NCBI GenBank assembly: GCA_025361735.1
Contig: JANYKD010000031.1
Span: 1 to 51,348 of the forward strand
Origin: Phycisphaerales bacterium
GTDB lineage: Bacteria; Planctomycetota; Phycisphaerae; Tepidisphaerales; Tepidisphaeraceae
Reading direction: 5' to 3'
Length of the DNA: 51,348 nucleotides
The notes under the pieces: model-generated
The model's database searches: none
Seen by the model: the letters and a program-made list of their open reading frames with translations, nothing else
What the model was told of the DNA's origin: nothing
Part shown: one piece after another, positions 38,602 to 45,450 of the stretch
Layout of the letters: the number at the start of each line of letters is the position of its first letter
How positions within the stretch are numbered: the first letter of the stretch is position 1
Made by a program: the position numbers and the translations under genes

Positions 38602-39528
38602 ATGGAGAATGACGTTTCATGGCAAGTGCTCCGTCGAATCCTGCAGCAATGGGCAGGATCATCGGCGGAGCTCCAGGAAGTCAGGACCCTCGGGGGCGGG
38701 TCCATCTACAATACCCTCCTGCTTACTGCCCGCGACGGGCTGACGGCGGTCCTGAAACTGTCCTCGCACCGCGTCAATCGCGAGGTTGAACGCGAGGCCC
38801 ACCAGCTCAAGACCCTCGGCGCACTCGGGCTGCCCGTGCCCAAGGTACACGAGTATCATCTGGCCACCCTCGATTGCCCCCATTCCTGGCTGCTGCTCGA
38901 GTACATCGACGCGATGGACCTGCACGAGGTGCGGGATGCGATCACGCCCCAGGAATACCAGGTTGTCCAGGAGGAACTGGCCGACTTCTGTGTGCTGTTG
39001 CACAACACGACCGCGCGTTACTACCAGCGCGACGGCGACGCCGAGACGCCCCGGTTCCGGAGCTGGCCGCGATTCTTTCATCATATTTATGACAGCATCT
39101 GGCGGGATGTCCGGACGGCCAAGATCCTGCCCTTGGAAGCCAAGCGCCAAATGGGCCGGTTGCACGAACAGTTGGATGAACTACTTGAACACCACGACCG
39201 CCCTCGCCTCATCCATGGCGACTTCTGGTCGGCCAACATCCTGGTCCGCCAGCACAACCACGGGCACTGGCATGTCGCGGCGTTACTCGATCCGAATCTG
39301 AAATTCGCCCACGCCGAGTCCGAACTGGCGTATCTTGAGCTGTTTCACACGATCACCCCGGAATTTCTCAAGAGATATCACAAGACCCACGACTCGGACG
39401 ACAGTTACTTCAAGTACCGTAAAGACTTATATCACGTTTACGATTTGCTTGATCACGTGCATCTTTTCGGGAATGAGTACGTCAAACCCTTTGTCGCGAC
39501 GCTGGACAAGCTCCATCATGTGCTTTAG
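38602..39528 (+). CDS. Fructosamine-kinase-like phosphotransferase
   Basis: 308 residues. The APH/FN3K kinase fold is visible: TLGGGSIYNTLLL (nucleotide loop), AVLKLSSHRVNREVEREA (Lys), catalytic LIHGDFWSANILV (HGDxxxxN), and LLDPNLKFAHAESELAYLEL with the metal-binding Asp. The LELF region and the GDxWSANxL motif match fructosamine/ketosamine-3-kinases, which phosphorylate glycated amines so that they break down. The upstream 297-base gap contains the divergent GYF promoter region and four copies of GGCAACT near 38491-38520. Confidence 0.85.
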   Translation: MENDVSWQVLRRILQQWAGSSAELQEVRTLGGGSIYNTLLLTARDGLTAVLKLSSHRVNREVEREAHQLKTLGALGLPVPKVHEYHLATLDCPHSWLLLEYIDAMDLHEVRDAITPQEYQVVQEELADFCVLLHNTTARYYQRDGDAETPRFRSWPRFFHHIYDSIWRDVRTAKILPLEAKRQMGRLHEQLDELLEHHDRPRLIHGDFWSANILVRQHNHGHWHVAALLDPNLKFAHAESELAYLELFHTITPEFLKRYHKTHDSDDSYFKYRKDLYHVYDLLDHVHLFGNEYVKPFVATLDKLHHVL

Positions 39529-39601
39529 CGATGCGAAGTCGCGGTTTCCCGTAACTTTCTGCTATCTGGACTGTCTTTATTCTTAATTGTGGAGGCCTAT
39601 T

Positions 39602-42043
39602 TTGGAGAAGGGTTTGGATAACGAGCGCAGCCCGCAGGAGTTGCTGCACGAATTCACGACGACCGGCCGGCAGGAGCCGTTCGCGGAGATTGTGCGCCGT
39701 TATGCCGGAATGGTCTTCCACGTCTGCCATCAGGTTGTCAAGAACACCCACGATGCCGAGGATGTCACCCAAGCTGTATTTCTGACCCTCGCCACCCAAT
39801 CCAAGAGTACTCAGATCAAGTACATCGGCCCCTGGCTTCAGCAAGTGGCTTATCGACTGGCTTTGGACGTTCGTAAGTCTCAGAAGCGCCGTGAGATACG
39901 AGAGATCAAGCATTTCGAGATATCCCGGGGCAACGGCAACGGCAATGGCCACGCACCGGCCGCCTCGGTTGCTCTGGACCAGTCGGAGATGAAGTCGCTG
40001 GTCGCCGACGAACTGAACAAACTCCCCACGAAATATCGCCTGCCGCTCATTCTGCACTACTTTGGCGGCATGAGCCGCGAGGAAATGGCTCGCGAGCTGC
40101 GCTGCAAACCCAGCACGCTGGGTGTGCGGCTGTTCCGTGGCCGGGAAATGTTGTCCGAGCGGCTGGCCGAGCGCGGCATTGTCGTCGGCGTGGGCGTGGT
40201 AACGGTTTTGCTGGCCTCGGTGGTCCGGGAGACCATCAGCCAGAACCTGCACGCCAGTGTTTGCCAGTATGCGACGACAATGGCTGCGGGTCACAGTATC
40301 AGTGCCTCGCTGGTCCCGTCGCATATCCTTGGCTTGGCGCAGACCGCGTCGCGTACGCTGCTGGTGGCCCGCATCAAGACGGCGGCCGCCGCCACACTCA
40401 TTGGAGCCAGCGCGCTGTTCGCAGGCGCTGAGGTGGTCGCGCGAGTCGACGTGTCGAATCTTCTACCGAACCTCCTGCGCGTGGATCTGAAGAACCTGCT
40501 GCAATTCCGATTATCGTTGCCGCGCATGCAGACTCCGCCGACGCAACTGAGCCAGGCCAATCCGATCCATCTCGACGCCGGCGCGATTACGCCCAAGCCG
40601 TTGATGAGCCCCGAGCAGATCATCGCCAATGTCGCCATCGAGCCCGTGGGAACCATTGACGCCTGGGCACCACCCTCACGGTACTCTTCGGGATCGTTCA
40701 CCATTTCCGGGCCGCTCAATATTCAGCAGATGCTGGGTGGGTCGCCGGTCGCGGCCTCGACATCGCGTTCGCCGCTGGATCTGCTTCCCGTAGTGCCGCC
40801 GGTGTCGGCCAAGGACTACACGCCGTCAATCAACGCCGTTGCCACGAGTTCGGCGACCAGTACATACCACGCAACCGATACGGTTTCACTGGCGACGACA
40901 TCCTCGCTCGGCAGCGGCCTGATTCACGTCTCGCCCAAACCGGACAGCAACAGCTACAGCTCGTCGGGTGGCGGTCAGCGGCAGGTGAAGAACCTCACCC
41001 TCCAGCCTGCGCCGGCGGGCGGGCGTTCGCCGGGCAAAGTCGGGTCGGCGGCAGTTGCTTCGGCTCGGCCGGCTCCACTTGAACTCGTTTCCAATACCCC
41101 GGTCGATGAGAACTTCATCGCCCAGGTTGACACAGGTGTCATGCCGCTCGCACTCGTCCAGCGCCAGCTTCATTCGGCGCAGACAACCGAGCAAACAGAC
41201 ACGAGCACGGCTTCTGTTGCCACCCGTGTCACAGGCACCACCACCAGTATCACCAGCAGCACCTACATCAGCGCCTATCCCGCCTATCAGCGGCGGCCGT
41301 GGAACAACACCGACACCACTCTTGCCGGCTGGGGCAATGTCGACGTCAACGGCGTCTTCGACAACAGCGGCCTGGTCATCGCCGACGGCAACAACAGTAG
41401 CCACACGCTTTCTCTGTCTAGTGCGTCCCTCATCACCAATTCGATGGACAATTCCCTGAGTGCCACGGCCGGCTGGTATGCGACCAGCGGCGGCAAGCTG
41501 GTGCTGCCGCCCATCCATCTCGCGACCGGCCAGAAATCGCTCACCTGGGGCGAGTCCCCATCCGATCCGGTGATCGACCTTGTCAACAGTGTGCGCCTGA
41601 CTTTCACTCCGGTGACCGCCGCCGGCCAGGTGTCGATTTCGCTGTTGGCGCCGGATCGAGCCGACATACCCGACTCCGGTGCGACTACGTTCCTCGACGT
41701 CTGGTCGATTGATTCGGGATCCACGCTGCTGCACGACATCAATGCGACCATTCGGCTCGACAGCCAACTGCTGGCCGAGCTTGGGTATGCGGAGTCGGAT
41801 GTGCTGCTCTGGGCCTACGACAGCAACCAGTGGCATTCGCTGGCCGCAACGGACTTCTCGGTCGATCTTAAGAGTCACCTGCTGAACGGCGACATCGGCG
41901 ATGCCGGTTACTTCGCCATTTCCGGCCAGCCACAGCAGCAGACCGCCGCCTTGCGATCCATCACAGTCGTGCCCGAACCGGCCGCGCTCTCGCTCCTGGC
42001 CCTAGGCGCGACTCTGCTCCTCCGCCGCCGTCGCGATCGCTGA
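39602..42043 (+). CDS. ECF sigma factor fused to a membrane-linked C-terminal domain with PEP-CTERM-like tail
   Basis: 813 residues, TTG start at 39602 with GGAGG seven bases before; a TTG at 39587 is possible. Residues about 15-90 are sigma70 region 2 (VKNTHDAEDVTQAVFLTLAT, WLQQVAYRLALDVRKSQ), about 125-180 region 4 (LPTKYRLPLILHYFGGMSRE, KPSTLGVRLFRGREML). A hydrophobic stretch (GVGVVTVLLASVV) near 190 and another (ATLIGASALFAGA) near 255 follow, then about 500 Ser/Thr-rich residues with a beta-rich domain (DPVIDLVNSVRLTFTPVTAA). The end reads VPEPAALSLLALGATLLLRR, a PEP-CTERM tail. Sigma factors with transmembrane C-termini exist in planctomycetes; a PEP-CTERM tail is unusual (see findings). 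Confidence 0.85.
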   Translation: MEKGLDNERSPQELLHEFTTTGRQEPFAEIVRRYAGMVFHVCHQVVKNTHDAEDVTQAVFLTLATQSKSTQIKYIGPWLQQVAYRLALDVRKSQKRREIREIKHFEISRGNGNGNGHAPAASVALDQSEMKSLVADELNKLPTKYRLPLILHYFGGMSREEMARELRCKPSTLGVRLFRGREMLSERLAERGIVVGVGVVTVLLASVVRETISQNLHASVCQYATTMAAGHSISASLVPSHILGLAQTASRTLLVARIKTAAAATLIGASALFAGAEVVARVDVSNLLPNLLRVDLKNLLQFRLSLPRMQTPPTQLSQANPIHLDAGAITPKPLMSPEQIIANVAIEPVGTIDAWAPPSRYSSGSFTISGPLNIQQMLGGSPVAASTSRSPLDLLPVVPPVSAKDYTPSINAVATSSATSTYHATDTVSLATTSSLGSGLIHVSPKPDSNSYSSSGGGQRQVKNLTLQPAPAGGRSPGKVGSAAVASARPAPLELVSNTPVDENFIAQVDTGVMPLALVQRQLHSAQTTEQTDTSTASVATRVTGTTTSITSSTYISAYPAYQRRPWNNTDTTLAGWGNVDVNGVFDNSGLVIADGNNSSHTLSLSSASLITNSMDNSLSATAGWYATSGGKLVLPPIHLATGQKSLTWGESPSDPVIDLVNSVRLTFTPVTAAGQVSISLLAPDRADIPDSGATTFLDVWSIDSGSTLLHDINATIRLDSQLLAELGYAESDVLLWAYDSNQWHSLAATDFSVDLKSHLLNGDIGDAGYFAISGQPQQQTAALRSITVVPEPAALSLLALGATLLLRRRRDR

Positions 42044-42121: not shown

Positions 42122-45100
42122 CTATCCGATTCCAATCTCGTCCACCCGCGCCCGCGGCGCCGCCGTCGCATGCGGCCGATATGCCGCCACGATCGACGCC
42201 GTCTGGTTGATGACCCGGGCGACATCGCTGTACTCGTACGTCCCCGTTGGCACCCCCTCGAACAGCACGCGCGGGTTGGCAAAATACGGAATCGTAGCCC
42301 CGGGATCGTAGCTCATGATGTCGTGGTACAACGAAGTGCCATCGGCCGTGAAGCGATAGCCGTGAGAATATGCGAATGGGCTGCTGACGCCGTCCGTCAG
42401 GTTGTCCGAATCGTGTTCGGCCCCCAGATTGTGCCCGATCTCGTGCGCCAGCGTGAAGGTCGGCGCGGAGGCCTGAGCGGCGAGCACCACGGAAAACCCC
42501 AAGCTGGCGTTGTCCGCGCTGTACAGATTCGATAACTCGTATCCGACCCCACCCAGATCGCCATCGCCCACCAGCAGCGAAACCAGGTCGGCGCCATACT
42601 GATCCCGAAGCGCATGCACGTTGTCCATGTATCCGTCCGCCGGGTTGGCCAATCGGGTCAGATCCGTATGGAAGCTACCCGAGTCCGTGTAATCCACCTC
42701 CGCCGTCTCGACCAGATTCAATCGGGTGGCAATCAGGCTGTTGGCGAACGCCGTGTTCGCATCCTGCACCGCCGCGTCAATCCACTCACCAATCGTCGAG
42801 TGGTCGGCTTCCGCGGACTGCCGCGCTGCGGGCGTGTAGACCACCATCAGATCGATCGTCGACATCGGCACGATCCGTTGCGACACCGCCCCCGACTTGC
42901 TCGCCAGGCAGTTGCCGGTGCCCGCGAACGCGGCAGTGATCTTATGCAGGCCGGCTGACAGCAAGCCAAGCTTCAGGACTGCCTTTGAGGCGGAGACAAG
43001 TGCCGTCCCCAGTGTTTTGGTGCCTTCCTTGAATGTTACAGTGCCGCTGCCAACCGGTACGCCGGCCGGGGTGTTCAGTTTCGCCGTGAGTGTGGCGGAA
43101 CCGCCCGCCGGCATCCAGTCGGCGGAACTTGCCAATGTCAGCGTTGACGCGACGGGCCGCACCGTGACCGGCATCACGCCAGCAACGGCGGACAGGTAGT
43201 TGCCGCTACCGGTGTAGACGACCTTCACTTTGTGCGCGCCGCCCGAGAGAAGCCCCAAGGTCGTCACCATTGCCCGGCCATTCTGCAGTCGTCCGTAGCC
43301 TGTAATCCGCCTTCCGTCGTAGAGCACGATGTCTCCCACCGGCACCGGCCCACCGGGAATGCTCGACCGCACCGCCACCCCGACCTGCAACTTCCGCCCC
43401 CACGGTGTCGTTTTTACAGGTGCTGTAATGGTGCCGACGCTCGCGGCCTTGCTCACCACCTGCTTCACGCCTGCCGATGTTGATCCCAGCGTGAAACCCC
43501 CACCGCTGTACACGGCCGAGAGGGTGTGCGCGCCGGCCGACATCAGCGGCACCGTGAACACGGCCTGCCCTGTTTTGTTCAAGTGCAGGGACTGCAACAC
43601 GCCGGATTCGTTCTTCAGAGTCACCGTGCTTGAAGCGCCCGCATCGGCCGGGGTCACGGTCGCCGTGAACGTGAGCGACTGGCCATACACGGTAGAGGGG
43701 CGTGAGGTTGTCAGCGTTACCCGGCTTGACTCCACCACCCGCTGGGTGACCGCCGGGGAAACGGCGGCCAGGAAATCCGCCCCGCCGCTGTACTCGGCGT
43801 GAAACGAGTGCATTCCGTGCGCCAGCGGCGGGCACTTGAAGTAAGCCGTGCCGTGATCCATCGGCGCGGTGCCGAGTATCCGGGTTCCATCCTTGAATGT
43901 CACCTTGCCGCCGTGCGGCAACAGCCCGCACTCCGAGGACGCCGCCGCTGTCAGCATCTCGGATTGCCTGTCTGTCAAGCGGTCAGCGGGAGGAACGAGG
44001 CTGAGTTCGGCCGACACCTTGGTGATCCGAACGGTTACGCTGAAGGTTGCGGCCGCGTGATCGGCATCACCGCTGTATTGGGCCAGGATGGTGTGCGCGC
44101 CTGCGTGCAGGGAGCCCTTTTCCGGACCCGACGGCGTGGCCCCATCGTAGAGCCCTACATTACCAAGGCTCTGCCCGGTCGCTGCGTCGACGTAGTCCAC
44201 ATGGCCGCTCTTGACGGACAATCCGTTGGTCGCGTCTCGGACATCCGCGTTCAGCCACATGGCAGCGCCGTACGAGAATAGGGCCAGACTCGGATCATAG
44301 GACCGCACTTCTGATCCGGAGTTCAGAAACAGGGCACTCCCATCATCGCTCATGCACATGATGTTGCCATACGACTCAGGCGTTCCGTTGCCGTCGCCGG
44401 CTTGGGTTCGCGCCAACTGCCGCCAAGTCCGGGTGTCATAGGCCGTGAGGGTGTCGGTCCAGGCATCTGACACATAGAGCACATCGCGGCCGGCGTCGAA
44501 TAGCACGCCCGCATTGGCGAGGACGACGTACGTCCTGACCGTATTCAGAGACGCGTCTCGAATCTCCAGAGCTCCTTCCGTGGAAATGGCCACCAGTGCC
44601 CCATCCCGGCTGACCGAGAGCCCGCGCACGGCGCCGCGGGCGATTGGGCTGCTGACGATGCCGCTTTCGGTACAGCGGTAGATGTCATGCTGAGACGCTA
44701 TGTAGACCGTTGAGAAATCGGCACTTCGCGCCACGGTCGCCTGGCCAACGCATGATAACGCCTCGCTTGTCGTGCCCGCGTTGATGGACAATTGATAGAT
44801 GCGCTCCTGGTTGTGGGTGGTTCCAAAGACCTCCTGGGATGTGATCACCGTATTCGATCCAAGCAGCGCCAAGTCAACCGTCCGACCCTGGTCGGTTGCC
44901 AAAGCGACGGGGACTTCGGCGGCGGTGCCTGCCGCAAGATCCACCTTCCACAACCCTGTCGGCGCCCCGGCCACATATAGGTACTTCGCGTCCTGAGTCA
45001 AGTCCGCGCCGCGAGCGCCCGGAACGCTGATTGAACCCAGAAGTTGTCCCGTCGCCGGGTTGTAGCGGCCGACTGTGTCATCGTTCACCAGCAGCAACTG

Positions 45101-45322
45101 TTGCCGCACCGGATCGAACGCCATATCGTGCGGCTGCACTGAAGAAACCAGTTGCCGCGAGTAGCTGGACTGAGAGGAAACACACACCGACATCTCAGTC
45201 GCCACACTCAGCAAACACCGCGACTCCAGCCCCTCGATCAACCACGACCGCGCGCCCCGCCAGAATATCCGGAGATCACGCAAGCTCTGTTCCTTTTTGA
45301 TCGATCGATGCCGATGGTTCAT
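42122..45322 (-). CDS. Exported metalloprotease with propeller and Ig-like repeats
   Basis: 1066 residues from MNHRHRSIKKEQSLRDLR with AAGGGG upstream. The planctomycete signal ends GLESRCLLS. Residues about 60-340 form YVTN-like propeller repeats (YLYVAGAPTGLWKVDLAAGT). Five bacterial Ig-like (Big_3_5) modules follow, each with the AGxHxxxAxYxG pattern. The C-terminal about 230 residues are a reprolysin-like zincin with zinc site HEIGHNLGAEHD (HExxHxxGxxHD) and TIDLMVVYTPAARQSAEAD at its start; SYDPGATIPYFANP fits the Met-turn region. Probably secreted or surface-bound; substrate unknown. It converges with the sigma-factor gene with a gap of 78 bases. Confidence 0.88.
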   Translation of the reverse strand: MNHRHRSIKKEQSLRDLRIFWRGARSWLIEGLESRCLLSVATEMSVCVSSQSSYSRQLVSSVQPHDMAFDPVRQQLLLVNDDTVGRYNPATGQLLGSISVPGARGADLTQDAKYLYVAGAPTGLWKVDLAAGTAAEVPVALATDQGRTVDLALLGSNTVITSQEVFGTTHNQERIYQLSINAGTTSEALSCVGQATVARSADFSTVYIASQHDIYRCTESGIVSSPIARGAVRGLSVSRDGALVAISTEGALEIRDASLNTVRTYVVLANAGVLFDAGRDVLYVSDAWTDTLTAYDTRTWRQLARTQAGDGNGTPESYGNIMCMSDDGSALFLNSGSEVRSYDPSLALFSYGAAMWLNADVRDATNGLSVKSGHVDYVDAATGQSLGNVGLYDGATPSGPEKGSLHAGAHTILAQYSGDADHAAATFSVTVRITKVSAELSLVPPADRLTDRQSEMLTAAASSECGLLPHGGKVTFKDGTRILGTAPMDHGTAYFKCPPLAHGMHSFHAEYSGGADFLAAVSPAVTQRVVESSRVTLTTSRPSTVYGQSLTFTATVTPADAGASSTVTLKNESGVLQSLHLNKTGQAVFTVPLMSAGAHTLSAVYSGGGFTLGSTSAGVKQVVSKAASVGTITAPVKTTPWGRKLQVGVAVRSSIPGGPVPVGDIVLYDGRRITGYGRLQNGRAMVTTLGLLSGGAHKVKVVYTGSGNYLSAVAGVMPVTVRPVASTLTLASSADWMPAGGSATLTAKLNTPAGVPVGSGTVTFKEGTKTLGTALVSASKAVLKLGLLSAGLHKITAAFAGTGNCLASKSGAVSQRIVPMSTIDLMVVYTPAARQSAEADHSTIGEWIDAAVQDANTAFANSLIATRLNLVETAEVDYTDSGSFHTDLTRLANPADGYMDNVHALRDQYGADLVSLLVGDGDLGGVGYELSNLYSADNASLGFSVVLAAQASAPTFTLAHEIGHNLGAEHDSDNLTDGVSSPFAYSHGYRFTADGTSLYHDIMSYDPGATIPYFANPRVLFEGVPTGTYEYSDVARVINQTASIVAAYRPHATAAPRARVDEIGIG

Positions 45323-45450
45323 TGCACCCCTTAAGTCGACGCACAAGCATCCCGCCGTCAAACCACAAAATGCACACTAGCGGATTGCATTATTGTAATA
45401 TACGCCATCTTCGGCACCGGAACAACTTTATACCCTTGAACCCGGCGTGG

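Follow-up and report, generated by a model that had tools for sequence, protein, structure and literature searches.

A predicted membrane-tethered ECF sigma factor ending in a PEP-CTERM sorting tail recurs in Phycisphaerae

Introduction

Planctomycetes encode many orphan ECF sigma factors whose inputs are unknown, and the biological read-out of sorting by exosortase and PEP-CTERM is, to our knowledge, little understood. These two questions meet in one gene of the window (the whole stretch of 51,348 nucleotides of Phycisphaerales DNA analysed here), the product of which begins as a sigma factor and ends as a predicted exosortase substrate. Proteins of the classical PEP-CTERM kind begin with a cleavable signal peptide, detected in 97% of them, and contain no other transmembrane (TM) segment (PMC1569441). 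The window protein has no N-terminal cleavable signal peptide; in its place stand an ECF domain and a predicted TM further along the chain. What, then, would a sorting tail do on a chain that begins as a cytoplasmic sigma factor?

The gene and its orthologues

The frame of the fusion gene is free of stops from 39587 to 42043 on the forward strand, and a GGAGG at a spacing of 6 nt makes the TTG the best start (Table 1), which supports the start chosen in the original prediction. Orthologues were sought with the tail as query in 26 genomes of the order and with a profile of the C-terminal domain in 397 genomes of the class, whole ORFs being read in each case; the window protein as a single query against the genome contigs found no relatives, whereas an alignment query did. 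The same fusion was present in 14 of the 26 genomes, representing 13 genera, with the order ECF sigma, hydrophobic segment, variable linker, conserved beta-domain and PEP-CTERM. Homologues with the fused architecture, on whose existence the original prediction depended, are thus not in short supply. The tail was found in every fused orthologue with a readable end; L175 runs off the end of its contig, and masking of the tail helix leaves only VPEP visible in L046. The design of ECF, membrane anchor, outer domain and sorting tag extends to at least 17 related genomes.

The draft, metagenome-type nature of the assembly could favour the view that a frameshift or misassembly joined two separate genes, but there is no in-frame stop in the ORF and the identical fusion occurs in 14 genomes, including on long contigs from other assemblies, which rules out such an origin to the point where we attach practically no weight to it. 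The gene is a single fused one.

Named fused members include MAGs of Planctomycetota and Phycisphaerales. A further gene that plainly belongs to the fusion family (L057) comes from a MAG labelled Mycobacterium; its contig, JAJKIB010000408, binned as Mycobacterium sp., carries a planctomycete sigma-PEP-CTERM gene and is probably mis-binned.

Table 1. Features of the fusion gene and its upstream region (positions in the window; residues of the 813-aa protein).
Feature	Position	Strand	Basis or remark
Candidate ECF-type promoter GTAAC-N17-GTCT	39551..39576	+	Weaker match to family consensus TGTAAYG-N15/16-CGTC
Shine-Dalgarno GGAGG	39591..39595	+	6 nt before TTG 39602; sequence
ECF sigma - TM - linker - beta-domain - PEP-CTERM fusion gene, 813 aa	39602..42043	+	ORF, Pfam, orthologues
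Sigma region 2, residues 30-97	39689..39892	+	Pfam Sigma70_r2 E 4.4e-8; AF2; sigmaE fold match
Sigma region 4, residues 136-184	40007..40153	+	Pfam Sigma70_r4_2 E 6.4e-12; sigmaE fold match
Predicted amphipathic helix after sigma4, residues 197-228	40190..40285	+	AF2 helix; less hydrophobic than TM in most orthologues
Predicted transmembrane helix, residues ~261-280	40382..40441	+	Conserved hydrophobic segment after K/R in orthologues; AF2
Predicted extracytoplasmic linker, residues 300-560	40499..41281	+	26% Ser+Thr, no Cys, 5% Lys+Arg (composition)
Beta-domain, residues 567-785	41300..41956	+	ZU5/GAIN-like predicted fold (AF2, Foldseek); also in secreted PEP-CTERM proteins
PEP-CTERM sorting tail, residues 790-811, VPEPAALSLLALGATLLLRRRRDR	41969..42034	+	Pfam PF07589; invariant PEP + basic cluster

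The sigma factor and its promoter

Sigma2 and sigma4, the only sigma domains present, are both intact and above the Pfam cut-off, and the protein scores 64.8 bits against the general ECF model of NCBIfam (TIGR02937; cut-off 42.9). The AF2 model of the N-terminal part gave pLDDT values above 93 for both cores, with a TM-score of 0.87 for sigma2 against region 2 of Escherichia coli sigmaE and of 0.77-0.80 for sigma4 against region 4 of sigmaE on -35 DNA. Pfam, NCBIfam and the predicted fold therefore agree with the original assignment of the N-terminus to the ECF sigma factors. Pfam and NCBIfam scans recognised no anti-sigma or zinc-finger domain in the fusion protein.

Eight of 15 fused genes are preceded by some form of the dyad TGTAAY-N16/17-CGTC(T). 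It was first noticed by eye, and L046, L050 and L176, which played no part in the noticing, also fit; an unbiased search for 4+4 dyads returned the same dyad as the most shared one (six of 15 genes, against maxima of 3-5 in 60 shuffles). The strict pattern TGTAATG-N15/16-CGTCT matched 17 times in the 26 genomes, compared to 11 matches for the reversed control, with four of the 17 directly upstream of a fused gene, so that across these genomes no wider regulon beyond the fused genes can be claimed from it. A first promoter guess, GAAC-N-CGT, was not enriched and was dropped. It is common for an ECF sigma factor to recognise its own promoter through boxes of this kind (PMC8103513), which makes autoregulation the natural interpretation, and the conserved ECF-type promoter suggests that the fused sigma may control its own gene.

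One could regard the sigma part as vestigial, serving just as a membrane anchor for a surface protein. This reading has no direct support, and the core and helix-turn-helix residues of sigma2 and sigma4 do not vary among the ten aligned orthologues, the predicted fold is sigmaE-like and the promoter is conserved, which makes it hardly credible.

The sorting tail and exosortase

The tail consists of the PEP motif, a hydrophobic helix and RRRR at the extreme C-terminus. On its own the window tail scores 17.2 (E 0.005) to 18.4 bits against PF07589, just below the curated cut-off of 20.7. The tripartite end is nevertheless retained in all ten aligned orthologues, which share 27-37% identity with the window protein, and P791, E792, P793, L806, R809 and R811 are invariant among them. 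A strict test for the tail was passed by 10/10 family members, by 5/100 other long ECFs and by 0/1240 control ORFs from the same DNA. Retention in ten of ten divergent orthologues together with its absence from the controls excludes a chance tail, and the PEP-CTERM-type end that had been proposed is borne out.

The genome does encode the enzyme for which the tail would be a substrate: two proteins match the exosortase family PF09721 (174 and 158 bits), a presence on which the original prediction also hinged, and in one of them, of 301 aa, Cys (EEACNGLR), Arg (NVIRM) and His (WFHDKAG) are present as expected. All 26 genomes of the order carry an exosortase gene, as do 36 of 38 genomes of another order, the two exceptions (G202, 72%, and G222, 57%) both being incomplete.

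Membrane topology

Hydrophobic segments follow sigma4, as had been described, but they most likely represent one TM and one amphipathic helix rather than several membrane spans. AF2 models the region as one helix at 197-228 and one long helix at 240-281 that contains the TM at ~261-280; averaged over the family, hydropathy (KD) is about 1.9 for segment ~261-280 versus about 1.4 for the segment after sigma4, the former most likely being the consistent TM of the family. The amphipathic helix might act as an intramolecular control segment.

Within the window protein, segment 1 (KD 1.94) is no less hydrophobic than the assigned TM (KD 1.68) and could by this measure cross the membrane. If both segments did so, the tail would lie inside the cell, the linker and beta-domain would be cytoplasmic and the tail a mere C-terminal anchor. 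We consider this very unlikely, since the first segment is charged or weakly hydrophobic in most orthologues, homologues of the beta-domain carry signal peptides and the composition of the tail part looks extracytoplasmic.

A sigma factor in the cytoplasm and a tail outside, joined by a membrane span that leads to an extracytoplasmic C-terminal part, is instead strongly predicted from sequence. In its favour are the consistent TM across the family, the scarcity of Lys+Arg in the linker and beta-domain (3% in the latter) and the absence of Cys from both, the beta-domain homologues that begin with a signal peptide and carry no sigma domain, and the sister long ECFs that have thioredoxin/TlpA-like or FG-GAP-like domains past the same TM position. 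Domains of these two kinds are usually extracytoplasmic.

The outer beta-domain

Beyond the TM the original prediction had seen some 500 Ser/Thr-rich residues. That description holds for the linker of about 260 residues, which is Ser/Thr/Pro-rich and variable among orthologues; the remainder is a folded beta-domain of ~215 residues that is conserved in them. AF2 modelled the C-terminal domain as all-beta plus a C-terminal tail helix (pLDDT 81), and a Foldseek search of the PDB placed ZU5, FIIND and GAIN domains on top, with a best E of 2e-3 and a TM-score of 0.37 on the query, from which we claim a similar predicted fold and nothing more. The predicted overall fold resembles that of domains in ankyrin, NLRP1 and adhesion GPCRs, although no sequence similarity to them was detected, and Pfam and PDB sequence searches with the beta-domain returned no match except the tail.

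The company of GAIN and FIIND raises the question of whether the domain splits itself, such that shedding of the outer part would activate the sigma factor. The top structural neighbours all belong to these two groups or to ZU5, and in some members the last strand (xLTxFAVS) resembles the GPS motif strand, HLTxFAVL. However, the catalytic His is missing, the Thr/Ser is not conserved (AGYFAIS in the window protein) and the structural match is no better than the above E and TM values, so that self-cleavage seems quite improbable; GAIN-like autoproteolysis was rejected because the aligned members do not preserve the cleavage motif His-[Leu/Phe]-[Thr/Ser].

Elsewhere in the class, other families have the same domain at the C-terminal end of PEP-CTERM or dockerin-type proteins (L164-L167, L169-L173) that show an evident signal peptide and no sigma domain. 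As these homologues end ordinary signal-peptide PEP-CTERM proteins, the beta-domain of the fusion is predicted to be extracytoplasmic too. A tree of the domain separates 14 fused from 12 secreted forms by one branch (support 98/98), and is consistent with a single fusion event.

PEP-CTERM proteins of Phycisphaerae commonly end in this domain (profile A2, 240 positions; L164-L173), which has a ZU5/GAIN-like predicted fold and no Pfam entry. A fragment of 130 aa (L177; G016:C162:2412-2678) is near-identical to the end of the fused protein of the same genome and represents a partial duplicate of beta-domain plus PEP tail.

Recurrence of the combination

The window genome encodes three more ECF-TM-PEP-CTERM proteins (L004, 406 aa; L005, 736 aa; L006, 490 aa), the outer parts of which are unrelated. 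Another nine from outside the fused family were found in other genomes: the five PEP-CTERM-ending proteins among the 100 other long membrane ECFs of the order (L187, L191 and L203, all from one genome, and L235 and L240), and one in each of four genomes of another order of the class, in which 38 genomes were covered (L284, which is the same as L099, L318, L332 and L333). In L004, L235, L240 and L318, which share the layout, both the sigma regions and the PEP-CTERM end exceed the Pfam cut-offs, the latter with 21.1-22.9 bits. The window genome has about 37 PEP-CTERM matches, plus the window gene, which the filter of that search missed, and four ECFs among ~37 PEP-CTERM proteins is far above chance. 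The combination is recurrent, not a one-off, and a genome with at least four such proteins, their outer domains unrelated, points to a general design.

Long membrane ECFs without the tail also occur. In the window genome they are L009, L013 and L007, with outer domains that are FG-GAP-like or uncharacterised, and one genome of the other order (G101; L314-L331) encodes about 17 long membrane ECFs with large and varied extracytoplasmic-looking domains, none of which ends in a PEP tail although an exosortase is encoded.

Discussion

From the computed architecture and its conservation, the exosortases in the genomes, the extracytoplasmic beta-domain family and the conserved promoter, we infer topology, exosortase cleavage, regulated proteolysis and autoregulation. 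The explanation we favour, and hold to be fairly probable, is that of an orphan ECF sigma factor that regulates itself and is tethered to the membrane; its outer half would be an exported, exosortase-sorted sensor of the envelope, and proteolysis would free the sigma. Sigma2-sigma4 would remain cytoplasmic, and the single TM that follows would both hold them at the inner membrane and, in place of the usual signal peptide, thread the linker and beta-domain outward. The PEP-CTERM helix would re-enter the inner membrane with the Arg cluster inside, and exosortase would then cut after PEP and pass the outer end to an envelope or exopolysaccharide acceptor. Whether the outer half is unsorted, anchored, pulled or shed would license site-1/site-2 proteolysis, and the freed sigma domain would switch on its own TGTAAY-N16/17-CGTCT promoter.

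Sorting by exosortase would in this scheme be the input and not the release step. The original prediction had processing of the tail release the sigma domain; a coupling of sorting or cleavage to release is compatible with all findings, but a cut at the tail alone cannot free the sigma because the N-terminal TM still anchors the chain, so a second cut of the site-2 type would be needed. M50 site-2 proteases are encoded in the window genome, and likewise in every control genome. Proteolysis releases IutY and has been proposed for SCO4117 (PMC8999054), and planctomycete WD40 ECFs fractionate with membranes (PMC8567305).

The main competitor is a membrane ECF sensor like IutY or SCO4117, with the PEP-CTERM helix as a second anchor or a passenger relic and no role for exosortase in signalling. 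A secreted protein could have been the joint source of beta-domain and PEP tail, and 95 of the 100 sister ECFs surveyed presumably signal without a PEP tail. Against this, PEP and Arg are invariant while the remainder diverges to ~30% identity, and a relic would leave unexplained why PEP tails stand on several unrelated ECF outer parts; we regard the competitor as unlikely, though deserving of serious consideration.

Membrane ECFs with outer domains are known, namely IutY and SCO4117 (PMC8999054). IutY of Pseudomonas putida (ECF243), a sigma factor fused to a membrane anti-sigma and released by Prc and RseP (PMC8999054), resembles the fusion protein as a one-chain membrane ECF with a periplasmic C-terminal part and proteolytic release, the last two being predictions for the fusion protein, but it differs by its recognisable anti-sigma domain, by a siderophore receptor as partner and by having neither PEP-CTERM nor exosortase. 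SCO4117 of Streptomyces coelicolor (ECF52), with its periplasmic Pro-rich region and carbohydrate-binding domain (PMC8999054), offers the succession of cytoplasmic sigma, TM, low-complexity outer linker and folded outer domain that is predicted for the fusion protein; it differs in being actinobacterial, in its zinc-finger anti-sigma and carbohydrate-binding domains and in lacking a C-terminal sorting tail. Sigma/anti-sigma fusions in general (IutY, ECF48/52/53) have the anti-sigma or zinc-finger domain that Pfam and NCBIfam did not find in the fusion protein. Planctomycete ECFs with C-terminal WD40 or other extensions (PMC8567305), a layout also seen here in L061-L067 and L072, share a sigma core followed by an extension and are recovered in the membrane fraction, but have no PEP-CTERM tail and unrelated outer domains. 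Secreted PEP-CTERM proteins (PMC1569441), including L164-L173 of Phycisphaerae, have the same tail and an exosortase in the genome, and L164-L173 also the same beta-domain, but a signal peptide where the fusion protein has a sigma domain and its TM. Searches of a library of 5.39 million open-access papers turned up no ECF that ends in PEP-CTERM, in keeping with the original prediction, whose author was aware of no established example with this end.

The favoured explanation suggests a physical link between the sorting of surface proteins and gene expression and, if true, would mean that a C-terminal sorting signal can serve a protein that starts in the cytoplasm, with no signal peptide. A bolder version, which we offer tentatively as possible although we lean against it, is that Phycisphaerae have a class of exosortase-sorted sigma factors in which PEP-CTERM cleavage or anchoring is itself the signal, transcription reporting the exosortase/exopolysaccharide state of the surface; these would be the first sorting-coupled sigma factors known.

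Gene neighbourhood

Comparison of 14 loci revealed no shared neighbour, and thus no conserved operon partner, linked anti-sigma or linked exosortase gene. In the window, a gene for a 308-aa phosphotransferase-like protein (38602-39528, +), by eye of the aminoglycoside/fructosamine kinase type, ends 73 nt upstream of the sigma gene, a position that is not kept in relatives. On the other side, 42122-45361 (-) encodes a secreted protein of 1079 aa in which Ig-like repeats, a reprolysin-type metalloprotease motif (HEIGHNLGAEHD) and a GLESRCLLS segment close to the N-terminus were recognised by eye.
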